Source: Oscillospiraceae bacterium (lineage in GTDB: Bacteria; Bacillota; Clostridia; Oscillospirales; Ruminococcaceae). From it: DNA of 55,513 nucleotides. Below, piece by piece: positions 36,304 through 45,672 of this stretch. How positions within the stretch are numbered: the stretch's first letter is position 1; each line of letters starts with the position of its first letter. The notes below the pieces were generated by a model, which made no database searches, was not told the origin of the DNA, and was given only the letters and a program-made list of their open reading frames with translations. Location of the stretch: assembly GCA_021203065.1 (NCBI GenBank), contig JAJQBX010000032.1, positions 562,420-617,932 of the forward strand, in the 5' to 3' direction. The position numbers and the translations under genes are program-made.

Positions 36304-36993
36304 TTAACGCCTATCAAGTTTTGTCGCCAGATGCGTTCCAACAGTCTGGATTATCTGCACAAGAAGAATCAGGAAAACGACCGCTAAAAGCATTACGAGA
36401 TAGCGATAACGGTAGTAGCCGTAGTTGATGGCTATCTTGCCGAGACCGCCGCCGCCGATGATGCCGCTCATGGCGGAGTAGCCCAAGATTGTGGTCATCG
36501 CTGTTGTGAAGTTTGAAATAAGTGACGGGATGCTCTCGGGGATCATTACTTTGACGATAATCTGGAGAGGTTTTGCGCCCATGCTTTGCGCCATTTCGAT
36601 TATATTCGGGTCGAGCTCTCTTAGGCTCGTTTCAACAAGCCTTGCCACAAAAGGAAATGCGGCAATTACAAGAGGGACTATTGAGGCAACTGTTCCTACT
36701 ACAGTTCCGACGATAAGTCTTGTCAATGGGAAGACCATTATCATAAGAATCAGGAACGGGACTGAGCGCAGGAGGTTTATGATAACGTTGAGAACATGGA
36801 GGAAGCCTGAGGGGATTTTCAGAATCTTCTTGTCCCCTGCCACTAAGATTACTCCCAACGGCAAGCCGATAAGAATAGCAAAGAAGGTCGAGATAACTGT
36901 GACATAGACCGTCTCCCAGATTGCTGTCGGGAATTCGCTGACGAATATTTCAAGTGCTTCCTGTACTTTGTCTGAGCTGAATATACTAAGCAT
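36304..36993 (-). CDS. metI: Methionine ABC transporter permease
   Basis: A 229-residue permease with five membrane helices and the EAA-type loop (ARLVETSLRELDPNIIEMAQSMGA in part). Family match is MetI, which forms a channel with MetN and MetQ for methionine uptake. Length and topology are normal. It overlaps metN by eight bases. Followed by the terminator at 36267. Confidence 0.9.
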   Translation of the reverse strand: MLSIFSSDKVQEALEIFVSEFPTAIWETVYVTVISTFFAILIGLPLGVILVAGDKKILKIPSGFLHVLNVIINLLRSVPFLILMIMVFPLTRLIVGTVVGTVASIVPLVIAAFPFVARLVETSLRELDPNIIEMAQSMGAKPLQIIVKVMIPESIPSLISNFTTAMTTILGYSAMSGIIGGGGLGKIAINYGYYRYRYLVMLLAVVFLILLVQIIQTVGTHLATKLDRR

Positions 36994-37996
36994 TGGTCTT
37001 AACCTCCTCTGCGATGATGTCGGGAATTTCTCTTAGGTAGCTGATGGCTTCTTCTGCCAAGCTTTCGTCGCCGGTGACGCTTAAGAGCATGTTGCCGTAG
37101 GCTTTGCCACCGATGCTTCGGGTGGAAGCAGAGCGGATGCTTGCAGCGATATTGCGATCCATCGCCATCTGGGCGATAAGAGGAGTTTTGCTGACCTCTG
37201 CGCCGTTATAAACAACACGGATGAAGTGCTCACCGGGTGCAGGAACGAGCGATTCAGAATAGCCATCCGGGTAGACAAGACGCTTTGCGGCTTCCGACTT
37301 CGGAGCGGAAAAGACCTCGTGCACCGGTCCTTCCTCTGCCACTTCGCCGCCGTTGAGAATCGCTACTCTGCCGCAAATCTCTTCAACAACGCTCATCTGA
37401 TGAGTGATTACTATGACTGTTAAGCCGAGCTTGTCACGGACATCACGGATAAGCGAGAGAATCGAATGGGTGGTCTGCGGGTCGAGGGCACTCGTCGCCT
37501 CGTCGCAAAGAAGAATCTTCGGGTGGGTTGCCAAAGCTCTTGCTATGGCTACTCTTTGCTGCTGACCGCCGGAAAGCTGTGCCGGGTAGTTCTTTGCCTT
37601 GTCGGAGAGACCGACTATTTCAAGGAGCTCCGTTGCTCTCTTGACGGCTTCCGACTTCTTTACGCCCGCTAATTCCAGTGGGAAGCAGACGTTTTTAAGG
37701 CAGTTGCGCTGCATAAGGAGGTTGAAGTCCTGAAAAATCATCGTTATCTTCTGACGCTCCTTGCGGAGCTCAGCTTCCGAAAGGTCATTCATGCTCTTGC
37801 CGTCGATGAGGACGCTTCCCTCTGTCGGGCGTTCAAGCATGTTTATACATCGGACGAGGGTGCTCTTTCCTGCACCGCTCATACCGATGATTCCGTAAAT
37901 CTCGCCGTCGGGAATGGTGAGGGAAATATTTTTAAGTGCCTCGACGTCGCCCGATTTTGCGGTGAATGTCTTTGACAGGTTTTTTAGTTCTATCAT
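36986..37996 (-). CDS. metN: Methionine ABC transporter ATPase with NIL regulatory domain
   Basis: A 336-residue ATPase: Walker A GMSGAGKST near 38-46, signature LSGGQQQRVAIARAL, Walker B LLCDEATSALD. The C-terminal NIL domain (about 260-336) is present, where methionine binds to slow transport (trans-inhibition). Partner of metI and metQ. A hairpin (38014-38044) in the 74-base gap after metQ suggests unequal expression. Confidence 0.92.
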   Translation of the reverse strand: MIELKNLSKTFTAKSGDVEALKNISLTIPDGEIYGIIGMSGAGKSTLVRCINMLERPTEGSVLIDGKSMNDLSEAELRKERQKITMIFQDFNLLMQRNCLKNVCFPLELAGVKKSEAVKRATELLEIVGLSDKAKNYPAQLSGGQQQRVAIARALATHPKILLCDEATSALDPQTTHSILSLIRDVRDKLGLTVIVITHQMSVVEEICGRVAILNGGEVAEEGPVHEVFSAPKSEAAKRLVYPDGYSESLVPAPGEHFIRVVYNGAEVSKTPLIAQMAMDRNIAASIRSASTRSIGGKAYGNMLLSVTGDESLAEEAISYLREIPDIIAEEVKTNA

Positions 37997-38070: not shown

Positions 38071-38928
38071 TTACTCGGTTATAGCGTCCAAGGATGATTG
38101 CTTGCCGCCGTAAAGACCCATCGGCTCAACATGGATGACGGAAACGGCAACGAGATGAGTTCCGTTCTGCTCGTTGAAATCGTCGAGATAAGGGGTGTGC
38201 TGGAAGTAGTTGGCGTCAACATCGCCGCTCTCAACAACGTTATTAGGAACGATATAATCGGTGTATTCCTGAATGTCGAGAGTGATGTTCTTTTCAGCGA
38301 GGATTTCAGCTGCAACTTCAAGAATCTCAGCATGAGGAGTGGGAGATGCGGCAACGGAAATTGTAGTTCCGGCAAGTGCGTCATAGTCGACTGTCTCGTC
38401 ATAGCCGTCGCCGGGATTGTCAACGGTGCTCACGACTGCGCCGTCGTAGGTGGAGGCGATGTAGTCTGCTACCTGCTGGCTTTCAAGTGCTGCTGTGAGT
38501 GCCTTTATCTTGTCGGTATCCTCGTTGCCCTCTTTTACTACGAGAACATTGCCATAAGCGGAGGAAGAGCCTTCGATAGCGAGGGAATCCTCAACCGGGT
38601 TAAGACCGGCTTCAATAGCGTAGTTCGAGTTGATAATAGCGTAGTCGACGTCCTGCAGAACGTTCGGGATCTGCGCAGCTTCGACTTCGTTGAACTCGAT
38701 GCCATAGGGGTTGTCCTCGATGTCGGCGATGGTTGCAGTGATTCCTGCGTCAGCCTTGAGGGTGATATAGCCAAGCTCTTCGAGGAGTAGGAGTGCTCTT
38801 GCTTCGTTGGTGGTGTCGTTAGGGACTGCGATGGTTATAACGTCATCGGTGTCGCCGCAGGCTGTAAGAAGTGTGAGCGATAATACTGCGCAAATAAGGA
38901 GTGATACAAATCTCTTTAAATTTTTCAT
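38071..38928 (-). CDS. metQ: Methionine-binding lipoprotein, circularly permuted
   Basis: A 285-residue MetQ/NlpA homologue with a signal ending LTAC (Cys24 lipidated). The mature protein begins with the half that is normally C-terminal: TIAVPNDTTNEARALLLLEE (32-51) to about 165. After a linker (166-187) comes the half that is normally N-terminal: TISVAASPTPHAEILEV, the DYIVPN and DANYFQHTPYL blocks, and EPMGLYGGKQSSLD at the end. In standard MetQ the SSLD element is followed at once by the IAIPND element. Length and all blocks are retained, so the fold should form, with new termini at the hinge. It is first in the metQNI operon. Confidence 0.9.
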   Translation of the reverse strand: MKNLKRFVSLLICAVLSLTLLTACGDTDDVITIAVPNDTTNEARALLLLEELGYITLKADAGITATIADIEDNPYGIEFNEVEAAQIPNVLQDVDYAIINSNYAIEAGLNPVEDSLAIEGSSSAYGNVLVVKEGNEDTDKIKALTAALESQQVADYIASTYDGAVVSTVDNPGDGYDETVDYDALAGTTISVAASPTPHAEILEVAAEILAEKNITLDIQEYTDYIVPNNVVESGDVDANYFQHTPYLDDFNEQNGTHLVAVSVIHVEPMGLYGGKQSSLDAITE

Positions 38929-39050: not shown

Positions 39051-39974
39051 TTACTCACTGTGTTTTGTGCCCAGATACTTATTCATTTCTTCTATGTACT
39101 GACAGGCGAGTGTGCTTGGCTGCATGTTTTTCTTTGTGATATAGCCTATTTCCATCCTGCTTCCCGACTCGTCTTCCGTTCTGAAAGGGACTGCTACATA
39201 ATCACTGCCGTTTAATTCCTCACAGATGATTCCAGAGCAAAGAGTGTAGCCATTCAAGCCGACCATAAGATTGAGGAGCGTCGCACGGTCGCAGGCTTTG
39301 ATGGTATAGGCATAATCACTGGTGCTGAGAATTTCCTCGGCAAAGTAGAAAGAACTGGTGTCTCCCTGCTCGAAAGAGAGGCAGGGATAGTCTCTGAGTT
39401 CATCAAAGCCTATCGATTCGTTATTAGCAAGAGGATGCCCTTTCCAGAGATAGACATAAGGGTCGCACTCGATGAGATGGTGGAATTCGAGGCTACTACT
39501 GTTTAAAATCTTGGTGATGGCGGCGCGGTTGAAGTCGCATAGGTACAGGATTCCTATCTCGCTTCGCATTGTGCTTACATCGGAAATGACGTCACGGGTT
39601 TTTGTCTCACGGATTGCAAACTCGTATTCTGCGGAGTCATAGTGCTTTACGAGCTCGACGAAGGCTTTCACCGCAAACGAATAATGCTGGGTAGAGACGC
39701 CAAACTTCTTTTTATAGCTCTGGCTGCCGTATTTTTCAACAAGCGATTCATACTGGTTATAGAGCTGCCGGGCATATGGTAGAAACTCTGCGCCGTCGTT
39801 TGTGAGTGTTACTCCCCTGCCACTCCGATAGAATATTGTTATGCCAAGCTCCCGCTCAAGCTCCTGCATTGAGCTTGTCAGAGACGGCTGGGCTATGTAT
39901 AAAACCTCTGCGGCTTTGTTGAAAGAGCCGGTTTCGGCGATTGTAATTGCATACTTAAGCTGTTGGATTGTCAT
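39051..39974 (-). CDS. LysR-family transcriptional regulator
   Basis: A 307-residue protein. N-terminal winged helix (residues 1-60: FNKAAEVLYIAQPSLTSSMQELE), followed by the periplasmic-binding-like effector domain (about 90-300). It lies just upstream of metQNI on the same strand, so it may control methionine transport, and its gene follows the nuclease-like gene by one base. Effector unknown. Confidence 0.9.
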   Translation of the reverse strand: MTIQQLKYAITIAETGSFNKAAEVLYIAQPSLTSSMQELERELGITIFYRSGRGVTLTNDGAEFLPYARQLYNQYESLVEKYGSQSYKKKFGVSTQHYSFAVKAFVELVKHYDSAEYEFAIRETKTRDVISDVSTMRSEIGILYLCDFNRAAITKILNSSSLEFHHLIECDPYVYLWKGHPLANNESIGFDELRDYPCLSFEQGDTSSFYFAEEILSTSDYAYTIKACDRATLLNLMVGLNGYTLCSGIICEELNGSDYVAVPFRTEDESGSRMEIGYITKKNMQPSTLACQYIEEMNKYLGTKHSE

Positions 39975-45513: not shown

Positions 45514-45590
45514 TGGCGCGTCCTACAGGATTCGAACCTGTGACCTACGGCTTAGAAGGCAGTTGCTCTATCCAGCTGAGCTAAGGACGC
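45514..45590 (-). tRNA. tRNA-Arg (anticodon TCT)
   Basis: 77 bases with CCA encoded. Acceptor GCGTCCT pairs with AGGACGC; the anticodon loop is CTTCTAA with TCT in the centre; the T arm has GGTTCGAATCC. It reads AGA codons. Confidence 0.96.
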
Positions 45591-45598
45591 ATAAAAAA

Positions 45599-45672
<74 letters not shown>

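Follow-up and report, generated by a model that had tools for sequence, protein, structure and literature searches.

A conserved, apparently functional circular permutation of the methionine-binding lipoprotein MetQ in an Oscillospiraceae bacterium, with signs of repeated permutation in its family

The stretch of DNA analysed here (the window, 55,513 nucleotides from the genome of an Oscillospiraceae bacterium) contains a gene for a 285-residue lipoprotein related to MetQ, the methionine-binding protein of the MetNIQ importer, together with metN and metI (Table 1). When the window was read from its letters alone, the two halves of this protein were noticed to stand in the opposite order to that in known MetQ/NlpA proteins, and a circular permutation was proposed. 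The open reading frame, the lipobox (LTAC with Cys24) and the sequence blocks with their order were all confirmed on inspection as this sequence-only reading had described them.

Profile and database searches place every part of MetQ in the protein, each once and in swapped order. PF03180 (NlpA/MetQ) matches with 266.5 bits as the total of two stretches (cut-off 27), profile columns 99-234 at residues 32-167 being followed by columns 1-95 at residues 190-284. At E <= 0.001 it is the only Pfam family matched, and the gene is the sole PF03180 locus that a profile search detects in the 2.36-Mb genome. In a phmmer search of the PDB, all 22 distinct sequences found match the protein as two stretches; for the best match, 4ib2_A, residues 188-285 align to chain positions 11-108 and residues 33-166 to positions 112-249. 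Every PDB relative found has its halves in the normal order, and neither these alignments nor PF03180 reveal any part of MetQ that is duplicated or absent. As columns 99-234 stand ahead of columns 1-95, the protein is a permuted variant of PF03180 and not a standard member. The score for the NCBIfam model TIGR00363 (MetQ/NlpA lipoprotein) lies below its cut-off (162.8 versus 228.85), likely as a result of the swapped order. The cut falls between columns 96 and 99 of the profile, where the inter-lobe crossover would lie by what is known of the family, and this fits the proposal that the new termini are at the hinge between the lobes.

Table 1. Permuted metQ, its parts and its neighbours in the window
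Feature	Coordinates	Strand	Basis
Permuted metQ, 285-residue lipoprotein	38071..38928	-	open reading frame and PF03180 match
Signal peptide with lipobox LTAC, Cys24	38857..38928	-	sequence read directly
Former C-terminal half, residues 32-168, now N-terminal	38425..38835	-	profile columns 99 to end, mostly lobe 2
Linker from old C-terminus to old N-terminus, residues 169-188, VDNPGDGYDETVDYDALAGT	38365..38424	-	
Former N-terminal half, residues 189-285, now C-terminal	38074..38364	-	profile columns 1-95, lobe 1
metN (ATPase with a NIL domain), downstream of permuted metQ, same strand	36986..37996	-	PF00005 and PF09383
metI, permease	36304..36993	-	PF00528
LysR-type regulator gene, just upstream of permuted metQ	39051..39974	-	PF00126, PF03466

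The survey of MetQ suggested in the sequence-only reading found the swapped order lineage-wide and not confined to the window genome. Counts were made from match tables by the order of the PF03180 profile pieces, and many of the genomes surveyed may be metagenome-assembled. In the following, L and G numbers label loci or sequences and genomes, respectively; A1 designates the hinge cut of the window protein, A2 a hinge cut with a shorter gap, and B, C and D other permuted forms. Among 31 genomes sampled from the genus, 11 (the window genome included) carry the swapped pair, three a divergent homologue in normal order, and 17 gave no match. The isolate Vescimonas fastidiosa MM35 has a copy matching in a single piece with 70.7% identity over residues 23-285, after which come genes for an ATP-binding cassette protein and a methionine permease. 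An assembly rearrangement, named at the outset as what would speak against a permutation, can thus be excluded, as can chance, since the same order is present in 11 of 31 congeneric genomes and in the record of an isolate. The isolate copy is annotated simply as MetQ/NlpA, so that routine annotation overlooks the rearrangement.

Permuted MetQ is common in the order of the window genome and scattered elsewhere. A scan of GTDB species genomes gave 36 loci, 29 with the window's order, one with another permutation (L054), four normal and two matching by the signal peptide only. In the window's own family, PF03180 was found in 129 of 297 genomes, and 23 of these 129 have a swapped pair; the gap is that of the window protein in nine and the shorter one in 14 (A2; 10 of the 14 were read). 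For the order the figure is 122 of 394 genomes; in 31 the permuted profile is matched over its whole length at E < 1e-80, two of them being A2, and a 32nd, G628, gave a weak match of another type. Within the phylum, 219 of 398 genomes have PF03180, three of them permuted. The family of G628 (43 of 146 genomes with a match) includes 19 window-like pairs, type C in G628 and G1227, and type D in G623; G1227 encodes both a type C protein (L319) and an A1 protein (L320). The genome of L054 is from Solobacterium, a genus of Erysipelotrichaceae; in that family 130 of 145 genomes match, six window-like, two of type C and five of type B, and G1127 adds one partial type-B-like match on a short contig. 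Altogether 272 distinct MetQ/NlpA sequences were collected, namely 181 in normal order (including L283, later recognised as type D), 86 hinge-cut (72 A1, 10 A2 and four C) and five cut elsewhere. The 15 A1 sequences in a careful tree form one clade (support 100/99), and 40 A1 sequences clade together in a quick tree.

Four records labelled Bacteriophage sp. from human faeces (MT835961.1, MT839148.1, MT838975.1 and MT838178.1) match the permuted protein in a single piece with 66-72% identity; perhaps they are bacterial contigs filed as phage. The permuted MetQs of Faecalibacterium (L037, L041, L043-L045, L052, L053 and L056) have signal peptides that contain an arginine pair and end in a lipobox-like Cys and resemble Tat lipoprotein signals.

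Genomic context, ligand residues, selection and the structural model are consistent with a working binding protein. A metN gene lies near the permuted gene on the same strand at 70 of 72 A1 loci, the others being L046, whose contig ends within the gene, and L135, and at all A2 (10), B (5) and C (4) loci. metI is near 51 of the 72 A1 loci, many A1 loci ending before metI would be reached, and near all A2, B and C loci. In A1 and B, metQ stands in front of metN and metI, and in A2 behind both. For Neisseria MetQ, PMC6739813 names seven methionine-contact residues. These were mapped through E. coli MetQ, the equivalence of N238 and N229 coming from PMC6739813 and the other six offsets from matching residues. 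In the window protein they correspond to Y225, F242, H244 and Y247 of the former N-terminal half and R44, N100 and N127 of the former C-terminal half. Every one of the 72 A1 and 10 A2 sequences retains all seven; in type B the contact His is Thr in all five, and in type C one contact Tyr is Phe in two of four. The ratio of nonsynonymous to synonymous substitution rates (dN/dS) of the mature protein against seven relatives is 0.044-0.061 in all seven pairs, and that of the linker region 0-0.044. The AlphaFold2 model has a mean predicted local distance difference test (pLDDT) score of 91.3 and a predicted template modelling (pTM) score of 0.84; the linker, with pLDDT of 92-98 in its model blocks, also has conserved columns and low dN. 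The best structural matches of the model are MetQs, aligned by order-bound methods that cover mainly one half of MetQ. Thus the circular permutation proposed in the sequence-only reading is borne out by swapped single-copy halves, 72 distinct conserved sequences, a confidently predicted fold and purifying selection, and the permuted protein would, by these sequence criteria, act as a methionine binder in transport. In the congeneric genome G010 (L014/L019) the permuted metQ is broken by a stop within its C-terminal half.

From its position only, the LysR-type protein is a possible regulator. A search for an upstream riboswitch with Rfam at gathering scores yielded only two tRNAs in the window; these are adjacent genes on the minus strand (45517-45672).

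The linkers point to the way in which the permutation came about. The segment VDNPGDGYDETVDYDALAGTTI of the window's linker aligns to the leader preceding lobe 1 in three normal-order sequences of one genus, g54 (L077, L086 and L194), with scores of 63-65 against a maximum of 49 in 1000 shuffles each. In a scan against the leaders of 170 of the 181 normal-order sequences, the remainder having no profile match near column 1, the same three score 71-74 and the next best 28. The motif is found in 71 of 72 A1 linkers. Being homologous to a normal-order N-terminal leader, the linker looks like the old leader, as the joining of tandem copies would leave it. In the type C sequence L171, the start of the linker corresponds to the C-terminal tail of the normal-order L282, with a score of 173 against no more than 63 in shuffles. 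Both observations lend indirect support to the tandem duplication and loss that had been suggested. In G1032 (L190), two normal-order metQ genes share one reading frame with a single stop between them; tandem normal-order metQ/nlpA genes occur also in L323 and L324. No fused MetQ double was seen among the sequences surveyed, and no flanking remnant of a permutation was detected in 549 translated frames covering up to 700 bases on each side of permuted genes. Several candidates were discarded: the one clear flank hit, in L014, is its own C-terminal half past the stop; three A2 flank hits at E values of 0.5-1.2 were taken as chance; a putative second-copy fossil past the stop in G007 and G014 (profile 1-145 with stops) proved to consist solely of intergenic sequence and the beginning of metN; and a longer profile match in L117, from column 69, is its signal peptide aligned by chance.

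The tether, from the Cys to the first domain residue, has a median length of 8 in A1 (67 of 72 measurable), 8 in A2 (10 of 10) and 7.5 in C (four sequences). In B the median is 17.5 (4 of 5), compared with 19 in normal-order proteins (163 of 180) and 22.5 in 68 normal ones of the window's order; the ranges overlap, and because the sequences are related a p-value for the difference has no meaning.

Other cut sites and close normal-order relatives suggest that the family was permuted more than once. The five type B sequences (L054, L306 and L308-L310) start near profile column 138 and end near column 125, in the middle of lobe 2; the match of L054 extends back to column 112. Their sister is the normal-order pair L239/L240 (support 100/99, the bootstrap of this tree not having converged), and the His to Thr change is common to type B, this pair and the distant L058/L059. 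The approximately unbiased (AU) test rejects a tree in which B forms one clade together with three A1 and two A2 sequences (p 0.008). Type C (L171, L311, L312 and L319) is cut at the hinge within a divergent NlpA subfamily, in which normal, hinge-cut and C-terminal-cut forms occur among close relatives. There the permuted L171 and the normal L282, from the same genus, are 84% and 78% identical in the respective lobes and pair at 100/99, and one clade of the four type C sequences is rejected (AU p 0.0002); the order must therefore have changed more than once in this subfamily, by permutation or by reversal. Type D (L283 in G623, one genome) begins with a segment that in L281 is C-terminal (score 136, against 56 at most in shuffles) and ends at profile column 203-207, a C-terminal cut. 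A survey of the order with the type C alignment, in which 82 of 295 genomes matched and which did not include G628, gave no further type C permutation among the matches listed, which were ranked by E value. Normal-order MetQ domains also occur in fusions: L092 (G303), L093 (G092) and L189 (G904) are lipoproteins of about 550 residues in which an SBP_bac_3 binding domain is fused to MetQ in normal order, as identified by Pfam in L092 and L189 and judged in L093 from the position of the MetQ match in a 577-residue frame.

Whether A1 and A2 share an origin bears on the number of events. All hinge-cut MetQs of the order could go back to a single permutation if some lineages had reverted to the normal order, and A1 and A2 are indeed cut at the same site. 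A single A1+A2 clade is left unrejected by the AU tests (p 0.067 and 0.13), and in one of the first quick trees, which had been searched too loosely, the tree constrained to it outscored the unconstrained one by 46 log units (p 0.81). Against this, A2 groups with the normal-order L203 at 100/96 in two trees and at 98/87 in another, and its linker and operon order differ from those of A1. On balance we regard a common origin as rather unlikely; A2 probably arose separately from A1. It appears likely that MetQ/NlpA has been serially permuted in at least three independent events (A1, B and at least one in the subfamily of L171 and L283), and probably in more, at three cut sites.

For the origin of the window protein itself, a fission of metQ with later fusion of the halves in the other order would give the same product. 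The lobes are separable in principle, and fission and fusion is an accepted model (PMC3320104); six short partial PF03180 matches occur in five genomes (G152, G109 with two, G1127, G1215 and G1294). Three of these, in G152, G1127 and one of the two in G109, lie at contig ends; none of the six is established as a gene. The old tail or leader sequence within the linkers is what end-to-end joining is expected to leave, and in-frame tandem metQ pairs exist, which makes separate half-genes an improbable route. It seems very improbable that the permuted gene has decayed or taken on another role and is not the methionine binder: the interrupted copy in G010 would fit such decay, but dN/dS values of about 0.05, complete contact residues, its standing as the sole PF03180 match of the genome and the adjacent metN and metI argue against it. 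We therefore favour, with a probability of roughly 0.87, a working methionine-binding lipoprotein of MetNIQ that was permuted through tandem duplication. In this process the old C-terminus would have been joined to the old N-terminus by a leader-derived linker, and new ends would have opened at the inter-lobe crossover. The permuted chain would still fold as one two-lobed MetQ, bind methionine in the cleft with a flytrap-like closure and dock on MetI. The lipid anchor, which in normal MetQ precedes the first strand of lobe 1, would now be connected by a shorter tether to the crossover strand ahead of lobe 2; as the sequence-only reading suggested, this shift might alter docking on MetI.

The methionine-capture protein of this gut bacterium has swapped halves, and its family appears to have been permuted several separate times at different cut points, which offers a natural setting for studying how proteins tolerate the relocation of their termini. 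As the ends moved, the lipid anchor moved with them, the tether being shortened in A1, A2 and C and not clearly in B, so that the family may serve as a natural experiment on anchor placement. To our knowledge, natural circular permutations have mostly been described as single old events. Some of the MetQ permutations are recent enough that normal and permuted orthologues share most of their sequence and old ends can still be recognised inside linkers. With recent and repeated permutation in a small, much-studied binding protein for which MetNIQ structures have been solved, the route, cost and benefit of permutation become directly testable.

The sequence-only reading knew of no description of a permuted MetQ, and none was found, judging by titles and the beginnings of abstracts, in a search that covered few subscription papers and no preprints. 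Compared with the MetQ proteins of E. coli and Neisseria (PF03180), the window protein has the same parts, ligand residues, lipobox and operon partners, whereas its halves are in the opposite order, its linker is new and its anchor is at a new position. Permutation by duplication is set out as a model in PMC3320104. Circularly permuted GTPases, YlqF and cpRAS (PMC2430557), likewise show that the cut site can differ between permuted members of a family; their fold and function are unrelated to those of MetQ. The closest parallel is Tp0684 (TpMglB-2) of Treponema pallidum, described in PMC4990184 as a natural circularly permuted lipoprotein that binds sugar and has relatives among Gram-positive gut bacteria; the paper suggests that tethering might favour permutation. 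Like the window protein, Tp0684 is a permuted binding lipoprotein of an ABC (ATP-binding cassette) importer, but it is a Type I sugar binder of another fold class in which the first three N-lobe strands have moved. The window MetQ does not have the Type I sugar-binding fold of such Type Ic proteins, as PF03180 is its only Pfam match and its structural matches are MetQs. The moved part of Tp0684 is only 13% identical to its counterpart; the first half of the window MetQ is 54% identical to 4ib2, and its second half aligns to 4ib2 at 111 bits. A permuted binding protein was thus already known in Tp0684.
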